This document shows, piece after piece, positions 2,003 to 63,379 of a stretch of 64,000 nucleotides of DNA. This stretch comes from Malurus cyaneus samueli (lineage: Eukaryota > Chordata > Aves > Passeriformes > Maluridae): assembly GCA_009741485.1 (NCBI GenBank), contig CM019227.1, forward strand, positions 18,091,038 through 18,155,037, given 5' to 3'. The translations under genes and the position numbers were made by a program. The stretch's first letter is position 1. Each line of letters begins with the position of its first letter. The notes beneath the pieces were generated by a model, which saw only the letters and a list, made by a program, of their open reading frames with translations, searched no databases and was not told where the DNA came from.

Positions 2003-3040
2003 CAACACAAAGTACAGTAACATGGCAGCATCTAGGGGGGGGTGGACCGCCGTGCTGGAGTAATGGAGGCGACGAGGTCTACACCGTTTATCGAGCTGCA
2101 GCCCCGAGTTGAGAGTCCGGTGGCCCTAGGTGCCTGGGGTGACAGACCCTCACAGGGGAACCTCATATAAACATTCTGTTAAGAATCATCCGAGAACGAA
2201 GTTAAATATATTCTCTACTGCTTTCTTTCTCCCAGACTAGCAGGCGACATGGTCATGGGGAAAGCGTCTGAAAGAGAAATGTGGTCTACTGCCAAAAGTT
2301 ATCTTCCAGTCTTGTTTGTGTACAACAGCGGTTCGTCTAAAAGTGTTTGAGGTAAAGCTCCTGGTCGTAGAGGAGAGCAATGCCAGAGGCGGCCGCAAGG
2401 AATTACAGAATCCCAGACGCCTAGAAAATAAATGCACACTAACTCCACCTACGGTGGTATTTGTAGTTACAAGAATAGTTACTCTTTGAGTGGACCATCG
2501 CGCTCGTGTACAAAATAGATGATCACTCGTTGTTTGGTATTAGGCTGCTTGTCGGCCAATGTAGTTCCTGTGGAGTGTGATGTGTAGAAACAATTCAGCC
2601 CCAGCCAAGCATCCAACCCCAGGATTTCAATGCCCTTTTCCCAGATATTTTTTCTATGCTGTCAATACTACCACCACAAAAGAATTCTCTGTGTGCCTAG
2701 TGGATAAAGCTGACTTTTGGAAACAGGATTCTTGGATATTTAAATTACAGGAAGAGTGGAATCCACCACTTGATAAGAAAATTTTTTTGGAAGATATTGG
2801 TTGGTGAGCTTCAAGAGGTAGCTAGATTTATGGCCTTGTTGCGTGGGGTCTATGGATGTTTGGAAGTGCTTCCTAGGGCATGTTCTTTGCTAAGAAACTC
2901 AGTCCTTTACCGAGGATGGTGTCAAGAGTTCTGTACCAAGAGCTGCCGTCCAGTGTGTCCTTCGCCCCTCCAGGGTATACTAACTCATATCACCCCTGAA
3001 CTGATATTTCCTCCCTAACACAATATTGTAATTGGATCAG
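2003..3040. other. Unassigned DNA
   Basis: No recognisable gene or repeat. The two short + strand ORFs at 2577-3018 have no domain, no plausible splice sites and no detectable similarity to a family I know. Confidence 0.4.
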
Positions 3041-3499
3041 CAAAAATATGTTGTTTCCCATCTTTCCTTACCCAGCCATTTCCCTCACCTGTCTCTTTTC
3101 CATTTTTATTTTTATGGATTCACTTGGGTGAATTTCCTGCCAGGTTCTCAGGTTTTCCCGTCAATGGGGGGTGGACAGAGGGTGCAGAGCAGGTTCTGCA
3201 GCCCCCACCAGCCCCTATAACAAGTTTAGAACCAGTCCAATCCCAGGCAGGGAGGTTTATAACCCTGTTAACCTTTCACTGCAGTTGACACCCAAAGTGG
3301 GGCCTCAGTCCCCGACAGAGCAGATCACCCACCTCAGGGGAAGTAGGGAGGAGGAGGAGGGAAGGGTTCCTTGTGGGAGAGGTATTGCCACACCTTGGAC
3401 CTACTGGGGTGGAAATGGAAATGAAGGCACTGGTTTGAGCTTTCCTGTGGGATTGTGTTTAAATGCATTAATCCACTCAGTGGGTACATTCCAAAGGGA
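3041..3499 (+). repeat. Direct duplication, copy A
   Basis: This stretch is nearly identical to 4631-5089 in the same orientation. The differences are mainly one- or two-base indels (for example 'cccctataac' here against 'cccctaataac' in copy B) plus a few substitutions. Copy A ends about 120 bases before the first N gap. An indel-dominated difference beside a gap suggests an unmerged duplicate contig end rather than an old duplication, though a recent true duplication is possible. Confidence 0.85.
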
Positions 3500-3620
3500 T
3501 TTTGGATGTAAATGCGGTTAAGGGAACAAAAAGAACACTCTATATGTGAGAGGAAGAATATGCTTCACAAGAACCTCTCCCAAAGCCAAGATGAAAACAA
3601 ACCCCCTCTATCCTCTCTTC

Positions 3621-3668
3621 NNNNNNNNNNNNNNNNNNNNNNNNNNNNNNNNNNNNNNNNNNNNNNNN
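3621..3668. other. Assembly gap (48 N)
   Basis: A run of 48 undetermined bases. It lies between the two copies of the 459-bp direct duplication, so the copies may be alternative versions of one locus. ORFs running through it are meaningless. Confidence 0.99.
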
Positions 3669-4630
3669 CTGATGTTGTGGGGCTGTGCGGTGTGTATGGG
3701 ACCAGCACCGTCACCTCTTGTTGTCTAGACGGAACTCTTGGGGTCCCCTGGACTTCCGTGGCTCCACGGGGCTGCCAAGCGAGACAAAAATGCTCAAACC
3801 CCATTAACTACCTCACAGATCTGCACAAATGCTGGAGTTTTGGGTTGAGCCCTCCCTCGGCTTTGTTGTCTGGGCTGTGGAAGGAGAGGGGTGGTCAGCC
3901 CTGTGCCAGGGGACCGTCCCCCACATGTGACGGCTGCCAGATGTGCTGGCTGGTGTCCGGCTGTCTGCCGGCTCCGTCGGGACGCGGCGGAGGATGGCGA
4001 GCAGATGGCGGGGAGATAACACCTCGCCAGAACTCCGATAAGGATGACCCCGCTCTGCCGCTGATTAAAAGCTTAATTTTGGAGTTTGAAATAGGAATTT
4101 AATAAACAAACACGAGCCGTCAGCGGGACCTCGCCCGGCAGCATCAGGGCGGGGGGTGGTGACCGCCGCGGCTGGAGCAGCGGCTCATCCCTCACTGCCG
4201 GTTTGTCCCGGTGGCGGTGCCGGTGTGACCCCACCGGGCACTCCCGAACGGCTTTGCTCCTCCACACTGCGGCTGCTGGAAGCTCTGAGAAAGTTTTGCA
4301 GCGGTGGTTCCTGTGCAGGAGCTTTGCCAGAGCCAGCAGGGAATAAATCAGCCCTGAAGGTGCCGCCAGCGCCGGGCAGGTGTCGTGGCTGGACCACGCT
4401 CTGTGTGCTCGGGGTGGGTTTGGATTCACTGCCAGCTCCTCACCAGGCACAGCCGAGTGCAAGACTGGCCCGGCACTTCCACCAATCCTCTTGGAATTAT
4501 TGTTGCTGTGTGTTTATGGCTTGTGCTGGGGTCTGGATTGGAGCTCAGGGATGTTTGCAGCTCAGGGATGGGTCAAAGCTCTTCCCAAGAGCTGCGTTTC
4601 CAGCTCAGCAACATATCCAGAAATATTTCC
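3669..4630. other. Intergenic DNA, with one AT-rich island
   Basis: GC-rich sequence without a recognisable gene. At 4040-4110 it includes a compact AT-rich block with a 'ctgattaaaagcttaatttt' core and a nearby 'aatttaataaacaaacac' core, which stands out from its surroundings and could be a regulatory element. No exon is supported. Confidence 0.4.
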
Positions 4631-5089
4631 CAAAAATATGTTGGTTTCCCATCTTTCCTTACCCAGCCATTTCCCTCACCTGTCTCTTTCCATTTTTATT
4701 TTTATGGATTCACTTGGGTGAATTTCCTGCCATGGTTCTCAGGTTTTCCCCTGTCAATGGGGGGTGGACAGAGGGTGCAGAGCAGGTTCTGCAGCCCCCA
4801 CCAGCCCCTAATAACAAGTTTAGAACCAGTCCAATCCCAGGCAGGGAGGTTTATAACCCTGTTAACCTTTCACTGCAGTTGACACCCAAAGTGGGGCCTC
4901 AGTCCCCGAGCAGAGCAGATCACCCACCTCAGGGGAAGGGGGGAGGAGGAGGAGGGAAGGGTTCCTTGTAGGAGAGGTATTGCCACACCTTGGACCTACT
5001 GGGGTGGAAATGAAGGCACTGGTTTGAGCTTTCCCGTGGGATTGTGTTTAAATTGCATTAATTCCCATCTCAGTGGGTACATCCAAGGG
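4631..5089 (+). repeat. Direct duplication, copy B
   Basis: Partner of 3041-3499. Both copies begin with 'caaaaatatgtt' and end just after 'cagtgggtacat'. Copy B looks like the better-quality version because A carries small deletions relative to it. The 271-residue ORF that runs through here has no recognisable domain. Confidence 0.85.
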
Positions 5090-6300
5090 CTGGAGCAGAT
5101 GTTGGGGGATGTTCAGCTTGGCCGGGCTCTGGCATGAACACCTTCTCTAAAAACTTCTGGCAGACCAAGCCAAACCTCCCTTCTACCTTAAACACTCTCC
5201 CCTAATTACTTAAAGGCTAATTGAAGAGGTTCTTTTTGCGTTTTCCTCAACCAAAACCTTCTGGAGCAGCACAGAAGAGCTGTGTGTTGGTGTCCATGGG
5301 AAAACTCTGTAATCCTTGTCGTGGTTTATCCTCCTCATGCCCCAGCAGCCTCCAAGAGCAGCTCTGCCAGGCAGGTGCCCATGGATTGGCCATCTTCTCC
5401 CTGGGCAAGAGACCCCTCCAGAAAATGCTCCACCACTGTTGGCTTGATGCATAATTGTCAGGTGGCAGCAGCTTCCTTCAGGAAGTCCCTCTCTGCCTGG
5501 GGGTGGAGGTGATGGGCAGCAGAAATCTGACTTCCAGACAGCAAAGGTTCATTGGGATGAATCCCTCGTGCTGAAGAAACCCACTGGCTGAGAAGAATGA
5601 TGGCAAATGGGGTTGAAGTCTGGAGGAGGGTGATAAAAGGGGTTGAAGAACAAAAAAGCCTGGCCAGCAGTGAGAGGCAGCACCTCCACCTGCCTGAGGT
5701 CTTGGTGGGCTGGTGGTGCAGATGTTCTGGGGGGAGGAGCCTTCCTCCCTGAGGAGTGAGGATGAGCATCAGCCTCAGGTGGAGACACCCTCCTCCAGGA
5801 GAAGGGAGCAAGCTTTAGAAAACTGCCCTGGCATCAGATAGTCCCTGTCTCTCCATCTCCAGGTCTGGCCCAGGAGGGAGCGAGGGGTGACTCCCCACAA
5901 AAGGAGCCCCCTCTGACCTGTGCAGCTGGAGCGGGTCAGAGGAAATGTTTGAAGGAGTGCTGGGGTCCACACGGTCCTTGGGAGGAGAGAAGTGCTGTGG
6001 GATGTGGGACAGATTGCAGGCCTGCTGTGGGGATGAGGAGCGCAGGTCTGGAGGAGCAGTGTCACCCCCCGGGGCTGGCAGCATCCCTGCACTGCTGTCA
6101 CCCTCTGCCCACCTGCAGGGGGGTGCCCAGGAGGGGCTGAGCCCAGGGCTGGGATGGGAGCATGGAATTGCCCATCCCTGAGTGCTCTGTGCAGGACCTG
6201 CCTGCTGCCTTCACCAGTAAATCCAGCACTGTGGTTTCCTTTGGGTGCAAGCTCCTCCTGGGGTGGTTCCAGCTGGGCATGAGAGGAAATGTCTCTGATG
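5090..6300. other. Intergenic DNA
   Basis: No recognisable gene. Several short overlapping ORFs occur on both strands, as expected in GC-rich DNA, and none has a domain. Confidence 0.45.
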
Positions 6301-6475
6301 GGAACATTCAGCTGTTGGAATCACCTCCCCAGCAAAGTGTTGAATCCCCCAGTGTCGGATGCTTTCAAGATACAGCTGGGCAGGGCTCTAGGCTGTCCTA
6401 GGCCTTGCTTTTGACAAGAAAGGTTGCACCAGGTGCTCCTTGAGGCCCCTTCCACCCTGGTGTTCTGCGATTGTT
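6301..6475 (+). mobile_element. CR1 LINE 3' fragment
   Basis: The end of this stretch reads 'cttgaggccccttccaccct' then 'ggtgttctgcgatt', the degraded sense-strand 3' terminus of a CR1 element (consensus form: cccttccaacc...ttctatgattc). The 5' limit is approximate. Confidence 0.6.
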
Positions 6476-7053
6476 TGTTCCCTCTTCTGTTCAGACTTGT
6501 CTGTGACCATCCCTGATCTCCTGAGCTCATCTGAAGTGGCTTCACGGGTGTTATTACGAGAACGCCGTGGGCTGCACTGGGACCGTAGGCAGCTCCTTCC
6601 CAGCTCCAGAGCAGCTGACTGATTTTCTGATTTGTCCCCAATGCTTTGTAGCTGATCTTGCAAGCAGAAGAGTTGCATTTTCCCGTTTTCTAATCAGATG
6701 TAAAAGCCTCTGCAGCCTACACTGATTTTGTTGTGCCATGAAATGAACTCCCTCAATGATGATCCAGCACCCCTTCTGCTGCCTGGGCAGCCTGTGGCTC
6801 CCACTGCCACTCCCCCATTCGGTGGGATGATGGCAGAGACGTGACCCAGTGCCCTGCTGGGGTCAGCCCTCCCACCTGCAAGCTCCTTAATGCCACTTTC
6901 CGGAGCTGACAACCCTCAGACAGATCTCACTTCCACTGCAGGATGTCTTTCCACCTCTAATTCCCACCCACGCAAACCTACTTGGACCATGCTCCTCCTC
7001 TCAGCCGTGCACAGAGGCTCCTTGCAGGCTCAGGGATGCTGCTGTCAGAACAG
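6476..7053. other. Intergenic DNA
   Basis: Nothing recognisable; no exon or regulatory motif can be supported. Confidence 0.4.
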
Positions 7054-7150
7054 CTTCCCTTCCCTTCCCTTCCCTTCCCTTCCCTTCCCTTCCCTTCCCT
7101 TCCCTTCCCTTCCCTTCCCTTCCCTTCCCTTCCCTTCCCTTCCCTTCCCT
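7054..7150 (+). repeat. (CCCTT)n simple repeat
   Basis: About 19 uninterrupted CTTCC units. Homopurine on one strand and homopyrimidine on the other, it has the symmetry needed for triplex (H-DNA) formation. The repeated Ser/Leu/Pro or Arg/Glu/Gly/Lys peptides predicted here are products of the repeat, not proteins. Confidence 0.98.
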
Positions 7151-7824
7151 TTTTGGATGATCTGTCCTGGCTGAATCACCAGGATCACCCGGGATGGTCA
7201 CTGTGGGACCTTGGCCATGGGGTCTGGCCGTGCCTGGGCTCAGCTGCTCCTCACCCCTGGTTCCTGGCTTGGCCTTGACGTTGGGGCTGGAATAACTGGG
7301 ATGACCCCAAGTCTTGGTTCATGACAGCAATTTTTAGGCACAGCAAGATATGGAATACATCCACATTTTGGGTTACACCCACCTGAGCAGGCGGGCTGGG
7401 AGGGGCTGTTTGGCTGGGGAGAGCACTCTCTGAGCCTCTCAGTCTCAAATGGAAGTGCTTTTCACAAGAGATGAGCCTTGAGTGATGTCTTCCCATGGGA
7501 TTTTGCATTTCTGCTGGACAAGTTGACCATGTGGTGCCAACGATCCCAATGACATTAAATCCATTCCCTCCCCTTGTGGTGCAGCTGTCCCCAGCTCTGT
7601 TTGTTTGTTTTTGTCTGGCTAGGAAGTCTTTGGGTCCCCTGGACTTTGTGCCCCAACAGAACTGTTTAACCCTGAGTGAGGAAATGGTTCCCTGAGATGC
7701 AGAAATCAGGGTAGGTGCATTACTGAATTGCCAGGCAGGAAATGTTTTTGTTTTCTCTCAAATTCTGGGTTGGGCTGGCCTGGCTCCAGTGAGCTTTTTT
7801 GCAGCCCCTCTGAAACTGGTCACA
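7151..7824. other. Intergenic DNA
   Basis: No recognised gene or repeat. Confidence 0.4.
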
Positions 7825-8060
7825 GAAGTCATCCCAGAATCACAGAATGCCTTGGGTTGGAAGGGATTTGAAGGATCATCTCATTCCACTGCCTCTCTTG
7901 GGGTTGGGCCCCATCGAAGATGGCCTTGGAGATTTCCAGGGAAGGGGCAGCCACAGCTTCTCTGGACAACCTGTGCCAGAGCTTCGACTTTATGCCATTG
8001 CCATTGCCCCAGTGTTGTGCAATCCCTTTCCTCCAGCAGCACTGATTTATTCCAGCCAAG
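7825..8060 (-). mobile_element. CR1 LINE 3' fragment
   Basis: 'cagaatcacagaatgccttg' followed by 'ggttggaagggatttgaagg' is the reverse complement of the CR1 3' end. The internal block 'cagccacagcttctctgg' is also typical. The insertion is in minus orientation and truncated at its 5' end, as is usual for LINEs. Confidence 0.85.
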
Positions 8061-10225
8061 GAATCGAGGGAGTGATTGTGAGACAATGCCTTAGCAGAGT
8101 CCCAGAGGCCCTCGGGAGGCTGTGTGGGGTATTTTGGAGGTGGGATGGAAATGTCTCTTCCCATGGATGGTTCTTGGTGCATCAGAGGACTTGGAGTGTG
8201 ACCCTGAGTGTGAGTGGCAGGAGCCTCTGGGTGAGGGTGCCCAGGAAGGTCACCCCAAGCTGGGCACGGTGCCACGGTGCTCCTGACCCATGGGAGCTGT
8301 GCCCTGGTGTGGAACAACTCTGGTTCTAGAACAGGTACAGAGAGCAGGTTCCACACCCCAGCGCTGAATTTTTGTGTGTGTTCTGCCACAAAATCTCCTG
8401 GCCAGCCTTGAATGAGCCACTGAGAGCCAGAGCTGGTGGTCAGCAGGTGTTAGAACCTCCTGCCTTAATTTTGATCTCTGCTCCCCCTGTTCATTTTCTG
8501 TGGGATGGCTGGAGAAGGAGCATCTCTCTGCTGTTGGATCATGGGATGGGCAGGTTTGTGAGGGGCTGGGCAGGTTTGTGAGGCTCCTGAAGGCTGCAGC
8601 ACCAGCAGATTGGGAGGCACCACCAGGCACCACCCCTCGTGTTGTCAGCATTTTTAACTCTATGCTCCTGCTCCAAGACTTATTTCAATTCCTTTTATAG
8701 TTTCACCCATCCCTGCTTATACATGGTAATGTTAAGTAAAGCTGACTGATACAGTTTTACTCAGCTTCTATATTTTATTTTTCAAGAAAAAGTAATTTTT
8801 CCGTTGGAAAAAAAACAATTTTTCAATGAGTTTCCAAACTCATTTTTCTAGCAGTGAATGAAAAATTGGACAAACAAGTGAGGCATGTGCTTTGGTCAAA
8901 GCCTCAACATGGGCCTGAATCAGATGTGGGCACATCCTGCTGCACTGGGGTGTGCAGAGTGTATCTCCAGATGCATCTACATTTGTCAAGTTGGCATTAT
9001 TTATCCAAATATTAATTTTTCAGCTAGATTAATCAATTTTTAGGAAATCTTTGTCTACCTAAAGGTCCAATCTAGTCAGATTTCTTATTTCCTCTGAATG
9101 CCCTCAAATGGAAGCCTTTAAAAAAAGAGAGACTAAATGCAGGAGAAGTTTTCCCATTGAAGCCCCTTGCAAAGTGAGACCTCCCACAGCCATCAGGGAG
9201 CTCCTGGTGATAAAATCAGTTGTTCCCACGTGGGAACAGCAATCTCCAGCAGCATCAAACCCAAGGAATGATTTGGCGAGGAGTCTGCAGGGCCAGGCAG
9301 GCACGTCCACAGCGGAGGTTCAGACCCTGCTAACGAGGCCAAGGGAACTAATGGGGTCTGGCCAGGAGCCTGCAGAGACACTGTGGGAACAGCACCAGGA
9401 GGACACCGGTGCTGGAGTCAGGGCCAAATCTGTGACCTGAAATGTCCCCCAGGGCTGGTTGGGATGCAGGAGCTGTGTCCTCCTGAAGCTCCAGGGAGCA
9501 TGTTCCCCAGGAATTTTTCTTCTCAGGAAAGATCACCAGATCTTTTCCCCCGAGACCACATCCCTGCTCCTCCCAAACCCTGAGGTGGGTTGTGCCAGGT
9601 CCATGCCCATTCGCTGGCAAACCTTGGGTAATCTTTTCCCACCCCTACACCCCCACATCTCCCAGGACAGCATTCCTACTGCTTCCCCAGAGGGATGATG
9701 GGCATCAAGACAGGGACAGAGGAGGCTGTTCAGAGACAAATCAGGCTTCTGACCTCCCAGCACACGGGGGAGCAGCTCAACTTGCTCTGCACCAAGAAGC
9801 AAATACTGTGGGCTAGAAAAGATGTGAAAAGGAAAAAAAACGAACAGCAACCCTAAAGCCCCTAAGTGGTACAGTCTGTTATTGCTTCCAAAGCTTTGCT
9901 GTGGATTTTAATCCTTTAGGGATGGAGAGTGCACTCGTCCCGCACCGAGCGCTGCCCTTCGTCCCTGGAGGGGCCATTCCCAATGATGCATCCCAGGAAT
10001 TCCCATGTTTTGCCTGGGATGAGGGGCCAGCCCTGCCTGGGGTTGGCTGAGCTCGGCGCACCGCCAGAGGAGGGCTGTGGCGATGGGCCACGCAGGCCTT
10101 GGGCGGCTCTCCTGCGCCTGCGTCAGCTTTAATCTAAAGTTGGAGACTCTTCTTGAGCTGAATCTCGTGTAAGTTCGGGAGTAATAAACATGCATACGGG
10201 ACACTCACCCGTCGATGCCTCACGA
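8061..10225. other. Upstream DNA of the STXBP4-like gene
   Basis: No coding exon is recognised. CpG dinucleotides become more frequent at 9930-10110, so a promoter or untranslated first exon could lie there, but no TATA box, initiator or donor site can be fixed. AT-rich DNA at 8700-9080 holds nothing else identifiable. Confidence 0.35.
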
Positions 10226-10317
10226 CCTCCCCCCTTTTTCTTCCCTTCCTACTTTCTTTTCCTCCTCCATCTACTTTACACTCATCCTGCCAAATCAAAG
10301 TGGCTGGTGCCTGGCAG
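10226..10317 (+). promoter_or_regulatory. Polypyrimidine tract and likely splice acceptor before the first coding exon
   Basis: A long C/T run (10226-10285) is followed by 'gtgcctggcag' ending at 10317. This is the arrangement of a 3' splice site. It suggests that the exon with the start codon is not the first exon, and that an untranslated exon lies upstream, perhaps in the CpG-richer stretch near 10 kb or outside the window. Confidence 0.45.
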
Positions 10318-10341
10318 GGCTGGGCTGCCAGCACCAGCAAG

Positions 10342-10388
10342 ATGCCCGCGGTCTCTATCCTTTACAAGGGAGCCATCATCATCAGCAG
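10342..10388 (+). CDS. STXBP4-like, first coding exon
   Basis: Encodes residues 1-16, [15 protein letters not shown] plus two bases of an Arg codon. The ATG has A at -3, a good Kozak context. The donor is AG|gtaacc at 10389. No earlier ATG lies in this frame back through the pyrimidine tract, which is why this start was chosen. The exon itself probably begins near 10318 after a splice acceptor. Start assignment is moderate because the peptide is short; the phase (AG|G = Arg) fits exon 2 exactly. Confidence 0.6.
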
Positions 10389-13300
10389 GTAACCCTCCCC
10401 AGCCAGGGTGGGAGCAGAGAGGGGGTGCTGGGGGTCCCGTGGCTAATTCCAGCCGAGGTTCTTCCACTGTGGCTCTGCAGGAGTGGGGTTGGGAGGCAAG
10501 GATGTGCTGCAGGAGGAGCTCAGGGCACCATCCCTGGCTGGGTTTTCGCATTGGTGGCTTTAGCAGAGCTCAGGGCTGTTGGGCGTGCCTCGGAGCGGGG
10601 TGATGGTGAGAGGGCAATCAGGGGATGATGGTGAGAGGGGATGCCGGGGATGATGGTGGAGGGCATGCGGGATGATGGTCGAAAGGGGAATCAGGGAATG
10701 GGAAGTGGAGCAGGCATTGATGGTGATGCAGGGGATGATGGTGAGGGGGATGGAGGGGATGATGGCGAGAGGGGAATCAGGGGATGATGGTGATGCAGGG
10801 GATGATGGTGAGAGGGGAATCAGGGGATGATGGTGATGCAGGGGATGATGGTGAGGGGGATAGGGGATGATGGTGAGAGGGGAATCAGGGATGATGGTGA
10901 GAGGGGATGGGGATGATGGTGAGAGGGGATCAGGGGATGATGGTGAGAGGGGAATAGGGGATGATGGGAGAGGGGAATCAGGGGATGATGGTGAGAGGGG
11001 AATAGGGGATGATGGGTGAGAGGGGATGATGGGGGGATGATGGTGATGCAGGGGATGATGGTGAGAGGGATGCAGGGGATTTTGGGTCAGAGTTGATTGT
11101 ATCAAGGACCCATCTGCTCCGCTTTCCAGCCCACCCTGAGAGCCCCAGGCTCGCCCGGGGAATTTCCTCGGTGATTCACTCTAAACACCCTGAAAATCCC
11201 GGGCGGGGGATTGAAGCAGCCTGGGCCCAGGGCTACTCTGCCTTCCCAGGACACCTGCAGCTCTGTTTTCCAGCAGCCAGATGTGGCCAGCTGTTTGTTC
11301 AGTGTTGAGTACAGTGCAAGGACAGCAAGGAGCGGGATTTTAACAGGGAGAAAAAGCTCCCAGTCCAAATCTCAGAGCTGGGTGTTACTGGCTTTGCAGG
11401 GTAGCTCGATATTTTGAGATTTATTTTGGATTCCTGGGAAGTCCCTGTGGATTATTCTTGTCCTGTCTGCTGCTGCATTTCAAGCAGCCTGTTTTTTCCC
11501 ACGGTGTTGCTCCTCCTCATCTGTGTTCAGATCTGGGCCCTGATGTCGATTGGGAAACACCTTTACTCCTGTGACTGAAATTCTGGGGAATGTTTTGGGA
11601 GCTCCTCACCCCTGGTTTCCCACCTGGTACATCTGGGTCGGGTTTTCTCAGGTCAGGGGTCACCCATCCTGAGGGGCCCAAGGAGAAGCACCGGCATCCA
11701 TGGTTGGGGCAGGGTAGTTTTGGGATCATTCATTTGGGACCTGCTCTGAGAGTGTTTAGGGGGAGACTGCAAGATTTTTCAGGGAGTTACTTGGCTTGGG
11801 GGAATCTCGGGTGTGTGATGTTCTTCCACCTGCTCTGACTCATGCTAAGAAGCTCCCACCAGCCCAGGCAGGACTCGGAGCAGCACAGCAGCTGCTGCAT
11901 CCCCCTTTTCCAGACCCTCTGCCTGCATTAAAGGCCTTGGAAGTGGATTGTGCCTGGCTGTGTTGGTTACAGGCAGCCTGTGTTTGTGAGAGGGGTTTAT
12001 TCCCAGCACGCTGCTCCCAGGTCTGAGCTCATTTCCCGGAGCTGCACAGCTGTCCAGCCCCGATAATCTGGGGTAATGAAGCACAGACAGGTCCATCAGA
12101 TTTGCGGGGTGGGGAGGATGATGCTCAGCCCTGCACATGTTCTCTCCTTTATCTGTGTGAACGCCGGGGGGGCTGGCAGGGGCTGGTTTTGCCCGTGTGG
12201 GTGCAGGATGGGGGGCTGTCCCTCAGCCTGGCTGTCTGCAGTGTTTGGGGACAGTGTCTGGGCTGGGGGGGACAATGTGGCTCTGAGTGTGCCGGGCTGG
12301 CCACGCGTGCCTCAGTTCCTTTTGAAAGGAATGAGAGGGAGATGTCTTTACAAACAAACTGTGGGGTCTGCTGGGAGATAGGGCCAGATCCTGACAGGGG
12401 AGAGGAGCAACGGGAGGAACTGTAAATTCCACAGGAATTCCATCAATTGACACAGTTTGGTACTGACCCAAGGCAGGGCTAAATCCCTGGATGAGAGAAA
12501 AAGAACAGAGACACCAAGAATAAAGAAAAGGAGGGGCGGGATTTGAACATTAGATGGGGTCTGTATTAGGTGATTCGGGGATTCTGCACCTCTCAAGTAC
12601 CTCAGCAATGGGGAAAGAGAGAGGGAAATGCAGCTGGGAAATGAGGATAAAAAGGAGGCTGCATCCTCGAACAATTTGAGAGACCCTATGGAAATGCCCC
12701 ATGGCCCCTCCCTTTGTTGGAATAAAGTTCCAGAACTTCTCTGTCTCCTTTTTGGACATAAATCTCTGCTGCTTGTGGATTATTTTTAATAATTTTAACT
12801 AACAATTTTAGTGACAGAAAGATGCTGCTCTTGTCTCCCCAGGACACTCATGGGACCGTACGGGATGGACCGAACCGTGCACTGCTTTGACTTCTACGAG
12901 TGTGCAAATGGGCTGGGTAAGCACTCTTCCTCCTCTGGGTACATCGGGGAGGGCTGGGACACCTCAATAGTCCCCTCTGTCCCCCTGAGTCAGGAAGTGC
13001 CTCCCCATGTGGAGTCTGGTGCCTCACTGCTTCTGCTGTCTTGTGCCCGCCTGTGTCGAGCATCTCGGGCTCCTTTTGCAGCTGCAATATTAAAGGAATG
13101 TCAAAATACCAACTAATTCCATGGAGATGGTGAGCAGCCAGGGCTGGGAGCTGTGCAGAGCCCGGGGTCACAACCCCTGCCCTGAGCAGCATGGAGGGAA
13201 GAGACCTTTCAGAACTCCATGAATTAAATAAACTAAAATCAAATAGATAAATAGATAGAGATAGAAATAGATAGGCATGATAGATTAGATAGATATAGAT

Positions 13301-13518
13301 AGATAGATATAGATAGATAGATAGATAAGATAGATGATAGATAGATAGTAGATTCATAGATAGTAGATTAGATAGATTGATATATAGATAGATAGATAGA
13401 ATAGATAGATAGATGTAGATAGATAGAGATAGATGATAGATTATGATAGATAGATAGTAGACAGATAGATAGATAGACAGATAGATAGACAGATAGATAG
13501 ACAGATTGACAGACAGAT

Positions 13519-13576
<58 letters not shown>

Positions 13577-16500
13577 CAGATAGAATTCCAGCATTTCCCA
13601 GCTGCCTGCCCTCAGGAACCCGTCCCAAAGGGTGACAGGAGATGCTTCCTGCAGCTCTCCTGGGGACTGGGCTGCATGAACTGGGTTTGGAAAATGTGGC
13701 CCACGGGGAAGGAAATGAGTACCAAGTGAGTCAGGTGTCCTTCCACAGTGCTCTGGACTTCAAAGCATGGCAGGGAAAGGAAAAGAAAAGGTCACATCCA
13801 TCAGAACGTGAGAATGTCCCAGGTTCATGACACTCAGCCCAGAAGGATCCAGCACAGCTTTTTTTTTATGCCTTCTGTGTTATCCAGTGCTGCTCTGCCA
13901 TGGACTTCTTAAAAATCTATGATCCTGCATCAGGACTTTGCAGTTTCCCTTCTAACTCTTAATTGTGAGAGCTCACCCTCCCACAGAGTAGCTGGGGGCC
14001 CCTTGGTGAGATCCCTGAGTGGCCACTTGGGGCAACTCCTGAGAAACAAGTTCAGGTTTCCTGAGATTAATTATACATCAATTATAGATTAATTATTAGC
14101 TGTTTCCAGCTCTGGGGTAATGGGACTCTCAGCCGTGGAGGAGCAGCTTTACTGACTCTTCCCCTGGTCATGACGCTCACGGGAGCTCAGAGAAATGTCT
14201 TTATTTGACAAATATGATATTTTAATCTCCAGACGTGGATTTGCTTGACTTGATGGGATTTCAGCTGCTGGTTTAGATTAGCTCGTTAAAGGAGGAGACC
14301 TAGAAAAGCCTGACAGGGCCATCACTGACCTCTGGAAGAAGCCACAGATGTGGCAGCCCTTTGGGAAACACTTCTCAGGGTCCCAGTTCCTCTCCTTTCC
14401 CCAATCTGTGACCAGAGGGTCTTTGCAGGGTCATGCAGGCCCTCTAAAGCAAATTGTGATGAGCTGCAGGAAGCTACAATAATGTGGTTTTTCTGATGCC
14501 ATCATCAGCTGCCTTCATCCTCTCCTGTGATGCTTGAAGCACTCAAGAAAAGTGATCGTCCTCCAGAAATCATGAAATGGTTTGGGTTGGAAGGGACCTC
14601 AAAGCTCATCCCATTCCACCCCTGCCATGAGCAGGGACACCTTCCACTGTCCCAGCTGCTCAAGCCCTGTCCAGCCTGGCCTTGGACACTCCCAGGGACC
14701 AGGGGCCAGCACAGCTTCTCTGGGCACCCTGTGCCAGGGCCTCACACCTCCCAGGGAACAATTCCTTCCCAATATCCCATCCATCCCTGCCTCTGGCAGC
14801 CTAATCATCCCTCTATGATGAGTGGTCCTTGCAGCATCCCTGTACCTGCCACAGGTATAGCTGCTCAGAGCATGGGTTTTTTTTGAAACATCATGAGTTT
14901 CTCAGGCTGGATACAGGTTTGGATTACAGCAGTCTCTCAGGTTGGATGCAGGTGTTATCCCAGTTGGATTTAGGGTATTATCCCAGTTGGATACAGGCAC
15001 TATCCCAGTTGGATACAGGCACTATCCCAGTTGGGTGCAGGCTATCCCAGTTGGGTACAGGTGCTATCCCAGTTGGATGCAGGTTCTATCCCAGTTGGAT
15101 ACAGGCACTATCCCAGTTGGATGCAGGTTCTATCCCAGTTGGATGCAGGTCTATCCCAGTTGGATGCAGGCTATCCCAGTAGATGCAGGCACTATCCCAG
15201 TTGGATACAGGAGCTATCCCAGTTGGATACAGGTGCTATCCCAGTTGGGTACAGGTTCTATCCCAGTTGGGTACAGGTGCTATCCCAGTTGGATACAGGC
15301 ACTATCCCAGTTGGATGCAGGTGCTATCCCAGTTGGATGCAGGTTCTATCCCAGTCAGATGCAGGCACTATCCCAGTTGGATACAGGAGCTATCCCAGTT
15401 GGATACAGGTGCTATCCCAGTTGGGTACAGGTCTATCCCAGTTGGATGGTGCTATCCCAGTTGGATACAGGACTATCCCAGTTGGATACAGGAGCTATCC
15501 CAGTTGGATACAGGGCTATCCCAGTTGGATACAGGAGCTATCCCAGTTGGATACAGGAGCTATCCCAGTTGGATACAGGTGCTATCCCAGTTGGATACAG
15601 GCACTATCCCAGTTGGATGCAGGTTCTATCCCAGTTGGATGCAGGCGCTATCCCAGTTGGGTACAGGTGCTATCCCAGTTGGATGCAGGTTCTATCCCAG
15701 TTGGATGCAGGCACTATCCCAGTTGGATACAGGTCTATCCCAGTTGGATGCAGGTTCTATCCCAGTTGGATACAGGTGCTATCCCAGTTGGGTACAGGTT
15801 CTATCCCAGTTGGGTACAGGTGCTATCCCAGTTGGATACAGGTGCTATCCCAGTTGGATGCAGCACTATCCCAGTTGGATACAGGCGCTATCCCAGTTGG
15901 ATGCAGGCACTATCCCAGTTGGATACAGGCACTATCCCAGTTGGATACGGAGCTATCCCAGTTGGATGCAGGCACTATCCCAGTTGGATACAGGCACTAT
16001 CCCAGTTGGATGCAGGCACTATCCCAGTTGGATACAGGCGCTATCCCAGTTGGATACCAGGCAGCTATCCCAGTTGGATACAGGCACTATCCCAGTTGGA
16101 TGCAGGCCTATCCCAGTTGGATGCAGGTTCTATCCAGTTGGATACAGGCACTATCCCAGTTGGATACAGGCGCTATCCCAGTTGGATACAGGCACTATCC
16201 CAGTTGGATACAGGCGCTATCCCAGTTGGATGCAGGCACTATCCCAGTCAGATTTGGGTGTTATCCCAGCAGTTCCTTTGGAGCAGCCTCTTGGCTCGGT
16301 GCTGGCGTGGCTGGCCAGTGTTTGGCCCCGGCTCTGTTGCTCTGCAGCATCGGGTGCAGACCCACATGTGAACCTCAGGAGTTCAAAGGGGTCACCTGGC
16401 AGCTCCTCAAACCCGCACCTCGAATTACAGAATAGCATCAAAGGGAAGTGCTGATTAAGAAGCATTTCTCAGGAACACCGAGATCCCATTATCTTGACCT

Positions 16501-19500: not shown

Positions 19501-22500
19501 TTCCCTGGGAGGGTGGGAGGCCTGGCACAGGTGCCCAGGAAGCTGTGGCTGGCCCCTGGATCCCTGGCAGTGTCCAAGGCCAGGCTGGACGGGCTTGGAG
19601 CAACTGGACAGTGGAGGTGTCCCTGCCCATGGCAGGGGTGGCATTGGATGAGCTTTGAGGTCCCTTCCCAACCCAAACCCTTCCATTCCATGATTCTGTG
19701 AATTGAGGGTTGTCCTGTTCCTCCTGCCTCTGTCTCAGGGCTCTCCTTTCCCTGCAGGCATTAAGGTCATCGGTGGCATCAAGGAGCTCACTGGGGAAGA
19801 ATATGGGGTTTATGTCAAGAGGATCCTTGCAGGAGGAGTTGCTTATGCAGACGGTGAGTGAAGCCTGGGGCAGAGCGCCACGAGGTCTGACAACAGCCCA
19901 GACCCAGGGCATTTATTTCATTCATTGTCTTATTAGATATTTTGGGTGCCTGCTCTGAGATTTTCCAGGACTGGGGGTATTTTTCAGCGTGGCAGTTGTT
20001 CTGACATCTGGCAGCAGCCTTGGATTGGCTTCTCAACATCTGTACAATTGCTTTGTGTGTGTAAAGCACGGCCCATCTCTGCCACACAAGGACTTTCCCA
20101 CCCATTTCCACCTCCCCCTGGCCCCAAAATGACCCAAGATCCTTTGGCAGATTCTGCTCTGCTCTGGATCACTGATTGCACTCTGAGTATGTTCAGCTAA
20201 GCAGGTATTAGGGGTCTGCAGAGTTCACCTTTTACAACTTAAGCCAAACAGATACTTTTTCCCAGCTGTTACATCATTTTTCTATCCAATAAAGGAAAAT
20301 AAATACAGAACAGGTGGAAGTGCCTCTTGTGGTTTTCTACCTGACCTCCAACTGAACTCCTTGACCTCAACGTGCATTAAGCACAAGCTTTATTGCAGTT
20401 TTTGGTATTTGCTTTTGCAACTTCCCAGAGCAGAGGAAGTGCTGGGACATTGGCACCGGTTGTTCCAGGAGGTTGCAGAAACTCCATTTATGGACATCTG
20501 GAAAAACAGGTTGGACAAGCATCTCTGGAAGGACCAATGCGTTTTTCATCCTGTCTCTGGGCCCAGGGAGGACCTGCCCAGCCTCTCCCAGTTCCTCCAA
20601 GCTGTATTTTTCACAGTTTCTATCTGTCCATTTCCTTTTGCAGGGCGCCTGCAGCCAGGAGACCAGATCCTGGAGGTCAATGGAGAGTCCTTGATCGGGG
20701 TTACAAGCGAGAGGTACTGTATCCACAGGGGAATTTTCCATTCCTGTTACTTTTGTGGGATTCTGTGAAGTGGCTCAGGCTGTGAGCTGTGTGGAGGACA
20801 CCAGCTCTGTGCTTTTCCCCAGAACCAAGCTGGGGATTATCAGACAAAAACATTCAATATAAAAACAGACTGGTGATCCCAAATGGTATCTGTGAGACAT
20901 TCAGGCATTTCCCCCAAACACTGGGTTTTACACATCTCCTGGCACCCCCTGCAGCTGCTGCAGCTTCCCAGCACGCCCACAGCTCCCAGCACAGGAGCTC
21001 AGCTGGTGCCCAAGCCTGGCAGTGCCACTCTGTGCAGGGAATTCCCTCAGCTCCCCAGCGAGAGGACAATCACAGCTCCACAGGAGCACCAGCGCTTTGG
21101 GGCTCTCCTGTTCCATCAAACACGTTCCTGTCCTGCTGCCTGCCTCCCATTCCTGCACGAGGCTGGCTGGGAAGCAGCACGAGGAGCTGGGGCTGCTCCC
21201 AGAGCCCCAGAGCAGCTGGCTTTGGTGAGGTCCATGAGAACATCTCCATGGCTGTGGGAGGCTCTGTCTGGGGACACAGAACGGGGCTGTCCCTGAGATG
21301 GGGACTTCCCAGGGCAGGAATTACAGAACCCTGGAATGGTGTGGGTTGGAAGGGACTCAAAGGCCACCTGGTTGCATCCCCCTGCCCCGGGCCATGCAGG
21401 AGGATGTGCTCACCCCCACAGGGCTGTGTTATCAGGGACTCTCATGTGTAATGTGTTCAGCTGGGAAGGGAAGGGAAGGAAGGGAAGGGAAGGGGAAGGG
21501 AAGGAAGGGAAGGGAAGGGAAGGAAGGGAGGAGGGAAGGGAAGGGAAGGGAAGGGAAGGGAAGGGAAGGGAAGGGAAGGGAAGGGAAGGAGGAAGGAAGG
21601 GAAGGGAAGGGAAGGGAGAAGGGAGGGAAGGGAAGGGAAGGGAAGATCCTGCAGTTCCTGTACATCTTCAGCCAGAGCTCTGTGCAGGATGTGACAAACC
21701 CACACACAGCAGAGCTGGGGGAGCTGTGCCATCCTACAGCCAAGGCTGGAGCAGCCCTCGTGGTCCTGGGGGAAAATCCTGGGAAATCTGCTCAGTGCTG
21801 GAATGTCCCACAGACCCAACACAGTCAGGGCTGGAGCTGAGATTCCCCAGCTTTGGGATGTCCTACAGACCTGGCACAGTCATAGCTGAGCTGGGAGCCC
21901 CCTGCTTTGCTTCCCTCCATTGCAGCTCCACTGAATTGCCACCAGTGCAATTATCAAAGGCCCCCTGTGCCTGCCCCACGGGCCCTGAGCCTGGTCCAAC
22001 CCCAGGCTCTCAAGCTGTGGTGCCAAGGGGTACCAAAATTCCCGTCCCGGTGTGCCATGGCCCCGTACCTGGCATCGTCATCGCGGGCTATCAGCAGGCG
22101 CATGTGGCTGGTGGCCGACGCCGTCCTCAGGATGTCCACGGCCCTGGAACACCAGGACAGTGACACATCAGTCCCAGCTCCCGGTGGCTGCCCTGCTCAC
22201 CCCAAAGCTGGGCAGAGCCCCCTGGCTCAGGCAGACCCCGCTGGCAGCCGAGGTTCTGTGGAACAGCCCTGTTCCCTGCCCGGCAGTGAGGCCAAAGGGC
22301 AGCCACCCCTCAGTTTGATTCTCTGATTGTCCCACCTCTGCACCACATGAGAGTCCCTGATAACACAGCCCTGTGGGGGTGAGCACATCCTCCTGCATGG
22401 CCCGGGGCAGGGGGATGCAACCAGGTGGCCTTTGAGTCCCTTCCAACCCACACCATTCGGGGTAATTCCTGCCGGGAAGTCCCCCAGGGACAGCCCCGTT

Positions 22501-25500
22501 CTGGTCAGACAGAGCCTCCACAGCCATGGAATGTTCATGGACCACAACAGCTGCTCTGGGGCTCGGGAGCAGCCCCAGCTCCGTCTGCTTCCCAGCCAGC
22601 CTCGTGCAGGAATGGGAGGCAGGCAGCAGGACAGGAAGTGTTTGATGGAACAGGAGAGCCCCAAAGCGCTGGTGCTCCTGTGGAGCTGTGATTGTCCTCT
22701 CGCTGGGGAGCTGAGGGAATTCCCTGCACAGAGTGGCACTGCCAGGCTTGGGCACCAGCTGAGCTCCTGTGCTGGGAGCTGTGGGCGTGCTGGGAAGCTG
22801 CAGCAGCTGCAGGGGGTGCCAGGAGATGTGTAAAACCCAGTGTTTGGGGGAAATGCCTGAATGTCTCACAGATACCATTTGGGATCACCAGTCTGTTTTT
22901 ATATTGAATGTTTTTGTCTGATAATCCCCAGCTTGGTTCTGGGGAAAAGCACAGAGCTGGTGTCCTCCACACAGCCACAGCCTGAGCCACTTCACAGAAT
23001 CCCACAAAAGGTAACAGGAATGGAAAATTCCCCTGTGGATACAGTACCTCTCGCTTGTAACCCCGATCAAGGACTCTCCATTGACCTCCAGGATCTGGTC
23101 TCCTGGCTGCAGGCGCCCTGCAAAAGGAAATGAGACGATAGAAACTGTGAAAAATACAGCTTGGAGGAACTGGGAGAGGCTGGGCAGGTCCTCCCTGGGC
23201 CCAGGGACAGGATGAAAAATGCATTGGTCCTTCCAGAGATGCTTGTCCAACCTGTTTTTCCAGATGTCCATAAATGGAGTTTCTGCAACCTCCGGAACAA
23301 CCGGTGCCAATGTCCCAGCACTTCCTCTGCTCTGGGAAGTTGCAAAAGCAAATACCAAAAACTGCAATAAAGCTTGTGCTTAATGCACTTTGAGGTCAAG
23401 GAGTTCAGTTGGAGGTCAGGTAGAAAACCACAAGAGGCACTTCCACCTGTTCTGTATTTATTTTCCTTTATTTGATAGAAAAATGATGTAACAGCTGGGA
23501 AAAAGTATCTGTTTGGCTTAAGTTGTAAAAGGTGAACTCTGCAGACCCCTAATACCTGCTTAGCTGAACATACTCAGAGTGCAATCAGTGATCCAGAGCA
23601 GAGCAGAATCTGCCAAAGGATCTTGGGTCATTTTGGGGCCAGGGGAGGTGGAAATGGGTGGGAAAGAGGANNNNNNNNNNNNNNNNNNNNNNNNNAGCTC
23701 TTCCTTCCCCAGAGGTTTCCTCTTTCTCGGGGATGCTGAGCAGTTTCTCCCTGTCCCCTTGTTGTTCCCTGGGAAACCTTGCTCTCTCTGGGGAGGCTCA
23801 GAGGATTTGGAAGGGGAAGGGAAGAGCTGAGTCTTGTGTTGGGTGGATTGAAGCTGTGCGGGACCATGATGGTGCTGTGAGAGGGCAGAGCTGTGGTGAG
23901 CAGGGTAAGGATGAGTGGGGTCATTGTGCACATCCCATAGAGATCTGTCCCAGTGTGCTGGCACCTCCTCTGCTGTGTGCAGAAACAGAGGCCAGGAAAG
24001 CTGAGGTGCAGCAGGAAGTGGGGAAGGAGGGTGGGATGAGGCAGAGTGTGGCCTGGGCAGGTTCCTGGGCTGTGCTCTGTGTGGGTTGGAGGTCAGAGTC
24101 ACTCTCTCCACACGCCCACATCCCGTTAGTGTCCGAGGTGATGGATTCATTCCGTATCCGTGGAGCATTCCTGCCTTGGCAGAGGAGTGAGAGTGCTGCA
24201 ATGACAGGGTGAGACCAACTCTGACACAGCAATGCACTGAGGAAGAATTATTCGCTATTAATGACGGGCTGCTCTCAGCCAGCCTCTTGCAGGGGAAATA
24301 ACATCTCCTGTCATTACATCAAGTGCAAGTCCTCCAGCAGCTGCTGAGGAAGTGCTGGGTGGAGCAGGCAGGGATCCAGAGATCCTTTGGTCCAAGCAGG
24401 GATGCTCAGGATGCAGTTCAGAGGGTGAAGTGCCCATGGGTGTCCCACACTGTGTCCCAGAAGGAAGGATGGGATCCCTCAGCTCAGCAGCAGCAGCAGC
24501 AGCAGGGAAACAGTGCTGGAAACACTCAATTTCTCAGCCAGAGCCCCCAGCACCGGTTTTGTGCCTCCACCCCGATGTGTTTCAATCTGTTCAAGGATCT
24601 CTCTGCAGCTGCTAATATCCCGAATTGCAGCAGATGTTTCCCAAAGCGCCCGCACGCGTGGCTGCCCGGCTCCCCCCTGCTGCCAGCAGTCCCCAATCGT
24701 TCACTGTTGGTTATCTGTTAAATCTGCAAAAGGTTAGCCAGAGGGAGAGAGGGGAAGTAATCAGTTTATTTATTTTTTTTGCCGAAAGATTTGCAGAGAT
24801 TTCACTTACATAATCATCTCGCAAACTGTTTAATACACGAATACATATCTCCAGGATTAAGGGCTGTGGGAACGGGGGGAAGGATTTTCCTGCTCTCCAC
24901 TGTTTTTTTTTCTCACTTAGTTTTGTCTTTTATTATGGCCTGTTACCTTTTAAGTTCATCCTTGAGCATGGGTGAGCAGAGAGCAGGGTGGAAATAGGCT
25001 CTGCCTTGCTGGACCCACCAGCTCTGGGTGATGCCCATGGAGGTGCCATGCATGAACTGTGAGCAGCTTCCCACCTTCCCACTGCCCAGCAAAGCAGCTC
25101 ACCTGAAAGCTGAGGGGGACACAGGGCAGAGAAAATTCAGTTTATTTTCAAATCCTTCCTCACTCAGGGCACGCTGGAGGAGGAAACGTCATGGCTCTGC
25201 CTTTGGATCCAGCCTTCCTGCCAATTTTCCCAATGACTCAGCTGAGTAGCATTTTGTTGTGGTTGCCCTGGGGTGAATTTGACTCATAAATTCTATTATT
25301 TATCCCTGGAGTTAATTATAGGCCCAAATTACCTGTGCTTTTCATGGAACTCAGTCTCTGGCATGTATCAGATGCATTTTTTGGGCCTGTCGCATCAGCG
25401 GGGCTGCAGAGAGCAGCAGTAATGCCGGGCTTTAAAGCAGAAAATTCAGATTTGGAGCTGGACTCACCAGGTTTAGGTGATGCATGAATCTGATTTTTGT

Positions 25501-28500: not shown

Positions 28501-31500
28501 ATTGACTAAGAGCATTTCAGCCATTGTTTGGGAATTATAACCTGCTCTGTGCCCTGGTGGATTATTATCTGAGGAAAATGGAACAATGGATGACCACAGA
28601 AATACCCAGCTCAAGACAAAAGCCAGGTGCTGGTGGCTTGGTAACCACTGGGAATAAAACACGAGATCCCAGCGTGTTGGACCTGCCCCTGCACGGGGTC
28701 AGGGAGGGGTAAGGCCATGGCTGTGTGAGCTGCCAGTGAAACTGGTGTGAATCAGCTGCAGAAACTCAGAGGCTTTACTGGGAAACCGGAAAAATCCTGC
28801 TGAGATCTACCCAAGGCTCAGCTCAGGGATCCACACAACAGCAAACCAGGGGCTGAGTTGTCCTTCTGATTTCCCAGTGCTTGTGGAATCATTTAGGCTG
28901 AGAAAGCCCTCTGAGAGCCTCAAGTCCCTTAACACAGCACTGCCAAGGCCACCACAAAACCATGTCAGGTGTTACATCCACACATCTTTTGAACACTTCT
29001 GGTGATTCCACCACTTCCTTGACACATTTTCAGTGGAGAAACTTTTCGTAATATTTTCCATATATGTTGGTGCCTTACATTATGGAAGTGCCTCCCCTCA
29101 TACACAGTAAGGACAAATCACACAGGGCTGGCCCTACCCAGCTGTCCCTTGGTGGGCTACCAAATGCCTGCCACTGTCTGGGGGTAGATCCAATAAAAAA
29201 TTCCAGTGCTTGGAAAATGGCTTTGCTCATCTTCATGTCCCTTCCACTGTTCTATCATCAAAATAGCGTGGATGCAACAGCACCTTCTGGATGTCCTGGT
29301 GCCATCTTGGATATTCCTGGGAAGTTTGAGCCTAAGAGGTGAAAGCCAAAAGAGCTTTGTGGGAGGTGGGGTTTCTGAACAAAGTCATGGTCTTTTTTTA
29401 AGGTCATGGGTTTGGTTGATAAAGACAATAGTGGGGATTCAAATGTTGGGATTCACCAAGGCATGTCACTGAGCATTGTGTGACACTCAGGTTTTAAATT
29501 AGCATTAAATGAATGAATAAGGCATAAATTTGATGGCAATATTAGATAAGGCATGCGCTGGCCTTTGAAGTTTGTTAATGAGCTGGTTGTGACTGGGAAG
29601 ATGTAAATTACTGAGAGCACTTCCAGCAGGAACCTGAGGAGCTGATGATTCATTCATCATTTAATATTGTTGACTCTAATCTAGCCAATAACACCCAACA
29701 TCTGTCCCGGTGAGGAACGCAGGTGACGCAGCGTCTGCGAGTGTGTCACTGCAGTCTCCAGGCCCAGGGAACTTTGCTGTGGCTGGGTTCCTCCAGGTTC
29801 ACCTCTTGAGCCTGTCTGACTGTCAGGCCTGAGAGGGAGCCACTCATAGCCTGGCTTTTCCTGGGGCTATGGCATCAGGAAGGCACCTTCCCGTGGGGAT
29901 TCCCTGCTGCCTTCAAAGAGGACATCTAATGGTGTTACTGTGGCCACTGAAACAACATTTTCAGGGTCTGTCCCACTGCCTGGCTGCTTATTAGTCGGCA
30001 TGTGTGAGGAATTAGTCATCCCTGAGGATCTCTCTGCCAAAAGGTCAGATCCAGCAGGTGGGGATGGGTTATGGAGGGAGCGGACCCCCCTTGCAGAGGG
30101 ACAACTTGAGAGCTAAGATCCAGCATGGCAGGGGTGGAGCAGGAGGCTGCTGAACATGAGCGTGAACACCAACACAAACATGATTAAGATGCCTTCCCTT
30201 GCCATGCCTCCTCATCCCAAAGGATGTGAGGTCCTCACAGCAGCTCAAAGAAAGGTTACAGAAATGAGGAGGAGCTGGTGAATGTGGACAATGGTGATTC
30301 TTAATGTGGTTTAAAAATTCATAATGTCACACTTGGCAAAAAAAGCTCATGAAGCAACTCACCTGTGATGTACAGGGAGTTGCAGCTCACCAAAGGCTCA
30401 GCACATGGTGGTCAAACTCAACATGGAACAAAGCATTACTAAAGGTTTTTGGAGATCATTTTCCAGGGGATTTTGTGGATGAGATTGCACGCAGGTCTCT
30501 GTTGAGGCGTCATGCTTCAAGGGCTCGTGGAGAGCATCACCACGGATGGATTGCGAGAGTGGGCTGCTGCTTCTGCAGGTGCATCTCCCCTCTTTACTCC
30601 AGCAAGAGCTACAGGATCTGTTTTATGTTCAGGAGAGGAGGACAAACAGAATAACCCATATTTAACCCTTCTAGAAGGAGTCAAAAATAGGTTGATGATT
30701 TTTGGGTTGTGTTTGCACAGTTACAGCTCCTTCTGGCAGGGTTAAATTTGTGTGGCAAGTTTGCAAAAGTTTTCAGCCTTCTAGTTGGGGGTGGAAATAT
30801 TCCACCTGATTCCCAGGAGGGTCCATGAGATGGGGTGCAAGGCAGGGTGCAAGGCAGTGTTCATCTGATCTTCCTCAGGGATGAAAGTCCTCAGCACAGA
30901 GTCTGTCCATAGCATCATAGGATCACAAAGATTGGAGAAGACCTTTAAGGATAATTCCCTTCCTGAGCACATTCCAGAGCAGGTAAGGAGCACACTGAGG
31001 CTCCAGCCCATCGCAGGAAAGCTGTACTGCCAGGAGATTGATTATAGACCTGAAGCCTTTCACAAGCTCTCAAAACCAGGGTGTTCCCCTTGTGCATGAG
31101 GAAGCTCCGTCTGCTCCCCACAGCTGGAGGGCACCAGCTCTGTCTGCTCTCTGCAGCCTGGGTACCAAGGCACTGCCATCAGAGGCACCATTCCATAGGA
31201 TCAAGAGGGGGGAGTCCTGAGCAGCAGCTGACTGCACCATGGGTTTGTTTGCAGGAGAGAGTTCTCAGAGCTGCTGGAGAAGTTTGGTTCCCAGAGCAAC
31301 ACGGGCTCGGCACGGAGCTCGCCCATCCTGCACGGCGGCAGTGAGTAGCTCAGCAGGCTTTGGGGGGAACTGAAAGCCCCTTTCTCTGCAGAGGGACTTT
31401 CCTTTATCCCAGTGTCATTCTGGAGGAGCTGTGGTTGGATTTGGGCTGGTTTTGGGGTGGAGGTTTGATGGAAGCTTGTCCTTATTGCAGGCCTTTGGTG

Positions 31501-58621: not shown

Positions 58622-59030
58622 CCTTGGCACAAGGAGGGTGTGGACTTGTTGAAATAGATCCCGAGGAGGCCACGGAGATGTCCCAAGGGCTGGAGCCCCT
58701 CTGCTCTGGAGCCAGGCTGGGAGAGCTGGGAGTGTTCATCTGGAGAAGGATCCAGGGAGAGCTCAGAGCCCCTTCCAGTGCCTAAACAGGCTCCAGGAGA
58801 GCTGGAGAGGGACTTGGGACAAGGGCTGTGAGGTTGATGAGGCTCTTGCACAGGGTGCCCAGAGAAGCTGTGGCTGCCCCTGGATCCCTGGCAGTGCCCA
58901 AGGCCAGGCTGGACAGGGCTTGGAGCAGCCTGGGACAGTGGAAAGATTCCCTGCCCATGACAGGGGATGGAACAAGACAGGCTTTAAGGTCCCTTCCAAC
59001 CCAAACCATTCCAGGATTCTGTGTCTCCAT
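58622..59030 (+). mobile_element. CR1 LINE 3' copy, sense
   Basis: Sense CR1 from 'ggtgtggacttgttgaaata' through 'ccccttccagtgcctaaaca' and 'ggtgcccagagaagctgtgg' to 'aaaccattccaggattctgt'. Confidence 0.93.
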
Positions 59031-63303: not shown

Positions 63304-63379
63304 GTGTGTGGTAAAAATGGTGCAGAAATACCAGTCCCCGGTGCGAGTCTACAAATACCCTTTTGAGCTCGTCATGGCA
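63304..63379 (+). CDS. SEC14L1: SEC14-like protein, first coding exon (N-terminus of the PRELI/MSF1 domain)
   Basis: Acceptor 'tttctttctattacag', donor 'gtgagt'. The ATG is at 63317 with A at -3 and G at +4. The 21 codons read M then VQKYQSPVRVYKYPFELVMA, which is the conserved start of SEC14L1 and its close paralogue SEC14L5 and begins their PRELI/MSF1 lipid-transfer domain. A CRAL/TRIO and a GOLD domain follow in the family and lie outside the window. SEC14L1 is a cytosolic protein reported to restrain RIG-I signalling and to bind neurotransmitter transporters. Val at position 19 is what human SEC14L5 has (SEC14L1 has Ile), so the choice between the two is not certain; the CpG island and long 5' intron favour SEC14L1. 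Confidence 0.85.

Follow-up and report, generated by a model that had tools for sequence, protein, structure and literature searches.

An inverted repeat that places an STXBP4-like PDZ exon on the opposite strand in the Malurus cyaneus samueli assembly is very probably an assembly artefact

The window (the whole stretch of Malurus cyaneus samueli DNA that was analysed, 64,000 nucleotides) holds a gene that in vertebrates carries the annotation syntaxin-binding protein 4-like (STXBP4-like), which was identified by a protein search with a stitched peptide. The gene product shows the arrangement of the two-PDZ STXBP4-like proteins, namely two PDZ domains followed by a conserved coiled-coil region. 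Mapping of three relatives placed the exons of the gene on the plus strand from 10342 to about 46307, with the exceptions of exon 5 and of a second copy of exon 4 (Table 1). This agrees, the second exon 4 aside, with the original prediction that the remaining exons lie on the plus strand. It had also been claimed that both arms of an inverted repeat carry the same 70-base PDZ exon and that exon 5 exists solely on the minus strand, in a phase fitting exons 4 and 6, and our analysis confirmed both claims: the two copies of exon 4 have matching AG and GT borders, and an R codon is split AG/G at the 4/5 and 5/6 junctions. Over a test stretch the closest of the proteins compared was one of Malurus elegans, matching at 144 of 144 residues, with 140 for the next best, which makes a fairywren the probable source of the window.

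Table 1. Coordinates of the exons, repeat arms and gap-side copies. Rows marked control are given in joined positions of the 200-kb control; all others are positions in the window.
Feature	Position	Strand	Remarks
Exon 3, start of PDZ1	19758..19853	+	
Exon 4, left-arm copy	20644..20713	+	70 bases, AG and GT borders
Exon 4, right-arm copy	23048..23117	-	70 bases, same AG and GT borders
Exon 5, only copy	22069..22143	-	75 bases, AG and GT borders
Exon 6	31255..31341	+	3' end approximate
Left arm	20093..21448	+	putative end of left contig, holds exon 4; self-comparison
Right arm	22344..23666	-	inverted second copy, poorer in bases
Block most likely reversed	21449..23670	-	minus strand reads exon 4, intron 4, exon 5; reversal suggested by geometry
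Unique spacer with exon 5	21646..22343	.	1 match in own genome
(GGGAA)n tract, at the putative false join	21463..21645	.	Tandem Repeats Finder
25-N assembly gap	23671..23695	.	
Control gap 1, inverted copy	2130-4305/10608-8470		2.2 kb
Control gap 1, inverted copy	6225-7123/14498-13596		0.9 kb
Control gap 1, direct copy	4465-6222/10608-12419		1.8 kb
Control gap 1, direct copy	4301-4464/7119-7281		0.16 kb, ends right at gap
Control gap 2 (118088-118112), direct copy	117112-118075/119336-120331		about 1 kb, ends 12 bp before gap

The exon peptides of the STXBP4-like gene and their order are alike in birds, reptiles, frogs and fish (si:dkeyp-72e1.9 in some fish records), and the window differs from these relatives in the placement of exon 5, in the second exon 4 and in a later exon that is 13 residues short. 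In this later exon (44227-44316) the residues are missing in frame; the missing stretch is present in all 111 occurrences of the motif among the fetched proteins (104 with HEVA, seven with close variants) and is carried by Malurus elegans. The loss may be genuine, or it may stem from an error in the sequence. Elsewhere in the window, self-comparison revealed a tandem minisatellite at 14919-16269 with a period near 65 bp, and an exon predicted at 63304-63379 resembles what we take to be the start of SEC14L1. Beyond 44 kb a Pfam scan of the plus strand identified no family, and a TILa match at about 24255-24353, which fell below the cut-off in a frame with stops, was dismissed as chance.

To place the unusual exon layout among relatives, the best 120 matches from each of three protein searches (of 249, 569 and 609 matches, respectively) were taken, giving 267 different proteins. 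Of these vertebrate proteins 158 include PDZ1 exons, and in 157 of the 158 exons 3-4-5-6 are contiguous and in order, the exception being that of Columba guinea, which is without exon 4 and has exon 5 adjoining exon 6. The other 109 of the 267 proteins are without the PDZ1 exon and begin after it, many of them being partial bird models. None of the 158 proteins was without exon 5, including those from a search with a query from which exon 5 had been taken out. The layout of the window is shared by none of the PDZ1-bearing proteins fetched, and no PDZ1-bearing Malurus protein was among the matches listed (the best 120 of each search). An inversion shared by all songbirds is ruled out by the normally ordered proteins of the oscines Motacilla, Ficedula, Ammospiza, Sturnus and Oenanthe.

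BLASTN comparison of the window with itself gave one long inverted pair, formed by the left and right arms and aligned over 1358 columns at 96.8%. The original prediction of about 1.35 kb recurring as its reverse complement was thereby upheld, although its end points differ from the predicted ones by a few bases. Self-comparison of 20 first-order Markov controls gave minus-strand matches of 16-70 bp at best, and none in one control, which rules out a chance inverted repeat; an old segmental duplication is likewise ruled out by the identity of the exon copies and the occurrence of only four substitutions in about 1.3 kb. The arms had been predicted to end exactly at the N gap and at the (GGGAA)n tract, and they do end near these two places, though not exactly: the right arm can be aligned only to a point 4 bp short of the 25-N gap, and 14 bases (21449-21462) separate the left arm from the tract. 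The inner end of the shared stretch is the join at 21448, where the two copies part, and the shared stretch is thus delimited by this join and by the 25-N gap. When the block is reversed, its opening 1.35 kb matches the end of the left contig and is followed by intron 4 and exon 5, and the reversed block and the left contig together form a plain dovetail overlap that puts exon 5 in place.

In the arm-to-arm alignment the two copies differ by 4 substitutions and 22 indel events (the BLASTN tally being 6 mismatches and 37 gap bases), and the right arm is without the bases in 20 of these 22 events. Fifteen of the 20 losses cluster at left-arm positions 21178-21333 (155 bp), a patch that lies in the interior of the right arm and not at its gap end, and outside which the arms differ little. 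Within the patch, the left arm retains a motif in common with a repeat copy at 58989 on the minus strand, which is absent from the right arm. Natural divergence yields mainly substitutions, and because the arms differ mainly by indels, the differences in the right arm look, from the sequence, like uncorrected read error rather than divergence. A search of the bird's own genome assembly (1,066,867,332 bases in 1295 contigs) returned a single match for the spacer containing exon 5 and at least 26 matches for the arm, two of them near full length, both within the window, and the other 24 short. A second, correctly oriented exon 5 was not found elsewhere in this 1.07-Gb assembly.

Other N gaps of the assembly were surveyed in a control of 200 kb lying roughly 0.3-0.5 Mb ahead of the window on its scaffold, which is a contiguous, non-random stretch containing only two 25-N gaps, together with two single Ns. 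Gap 1 (joined positions 7282-7306) lies amid several local copies, direct and inverted, and gap 2 follows closely on a direct copy (Table 1). The control region 2130-14498, in which direct and inverted copies are reordered around gap 1, is likely a misassembly. Each of the five control pairs has more indel events than substitutions (53 against 26, 59 against 9, 6 against 3, 1 against 0 and 29 against 12), and the split of these indels between the two copies (12/41, 41/18, 5/1, 0/1 and 16/13) is not always one-sided, unlike that of the arms in the window. Under a filter set at 400 bp, 90% and 20 kb, the other rows of the control were a tandem array at 173409-174073 (three rows) and an overlapping pair just right of gap 1 (7572-8118/7935-8482). 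Under the same filter the window gave, besides the inverted arms, one further row, a direct pair of about 0.46 kb (3041-3497/4631-5089) that straddles a 48-N gap (3621-3668) at distances of 123 and 962 bases; the copies of this pair differ by 5 substitutions and 11 indel events, and it is likely a second false duplication. Near-identical local copies thus lie beside or across all four runs of at least 25 N in the 264 kb of window and control, including both 25-N gaps of the control and the 48-N gap of the window, a small and non-random sample. This suggests that such copies are frequent at gaps in this assembly, at least as judged from 200 kb of nearby sequence.

Taken together, we consider the inverted repeat to be an artefact of assembly, with a probability of roughly 95%, most likely one in which a fragment was set in the wrong orientation and its overlap was not merged. 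The left contig would end at about 21448, and the block that follows would be a neighbouring fragment put in backwards, the first 1.35 kb of which (on the minus strand) would duplicate the closing 1.35 kb of that contig in an overlap that ought to have been collapsed. The flipped fragment would have been attached by way of the low-complexity (GGGAA)n tract, and the 25-N gap would close its other end. We infer that the whole block was turned round in one piece; scaffolding or long-read gap filling may have been the step at which the software did so. A reversed contig with a leftover overlap was also the reading favoured in the original prediction, and it is supported by the dovetail, the one-sided indels, the exon order of the relatives, the single match of the spacer and the copies at other N gaps. 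Some observations count against it: the deletion patch lies inside the right arm, whereas thin long-read extension would be worst by the gap, the 14 bases next to the left arm are unaccounted for, no N run marks the putative false join, and the control is one 200-kb stretch of one scaffold with two 25-N gaps.

That not a single N interrupts the arms or the tract and spacer between them would suit a real inverted duplication, young and either fixed or segregating in the fairywren lineage, which would leave exon 5 on the opposite strand and PDZ1 split. A chromosome carrying it would make no normal PDZ1. Low-complexity tracts are known break points, and the presence of one at the join is also in keeping with such an event. 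The position of the right arm, which stops just before an assembly gap, argues against a real duplication, as this would have no reason to end there, and so do the loss from one copy of the bases in nearly all indel events alongside so few substitutions and the occurrence of like copies at the other N gaps examined. The layout is also not common to the PDZ1-bearing relatives, although a young event is compatible with that. This alternative, which the original prediction had called the exciting one, found no support in the sequence comparisons, and we regard it as highly improbable. An artefact of another kind, in which either a palindromic (fold-back) long read or a second haplotype was built into the assembly without the flipping of any whole contig, is unlikely but deserves more weight than a real duplication. 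The arms differ so little outside the patch that they could be two haplotypes, and the part of PMC6218980 that deals with palindromic long reads documents that these make false inverted duplications. A simple fold-back read, however, would repeat the spacer too, and the spacer has a single match in the own genome, the repetition being confined to the arms.

The probable artefact has little bearing on biology, and its practical value is as a warning on this locus and on inverted repeats beside gaps. Annotation of the STXBP4-like locus in this assembly will yield gene models that miss exon 5 or are split, and false inversions beside N gaps will turn up here in searches for inverted repeats or structural variants.

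Gaps that have been overfilled are generally entered in an assembly as runs of exactly 25 N. English et al. (PMC3504050) takes runs of at least 25 N as gaps and suspects those that are overfilled after long-read gap filling of marking faults already present in the assembly, inversions among them. The relevant section of PMC9635638 links overfilling to more duplicated genes, and that of PMC7757076 records overfilled gaps in a bird too. In pattern, the window appears similar to such PBJelly-type overfilled gaps in having near-identical sequence beside a short N gap. It is also like the false duplications from palindromic reads, as these are described in the part of PMC6218980 concerned, in that the near-identical copies are inverted, but differs from them in the unique spacer of about 0.9 kb between its arms.
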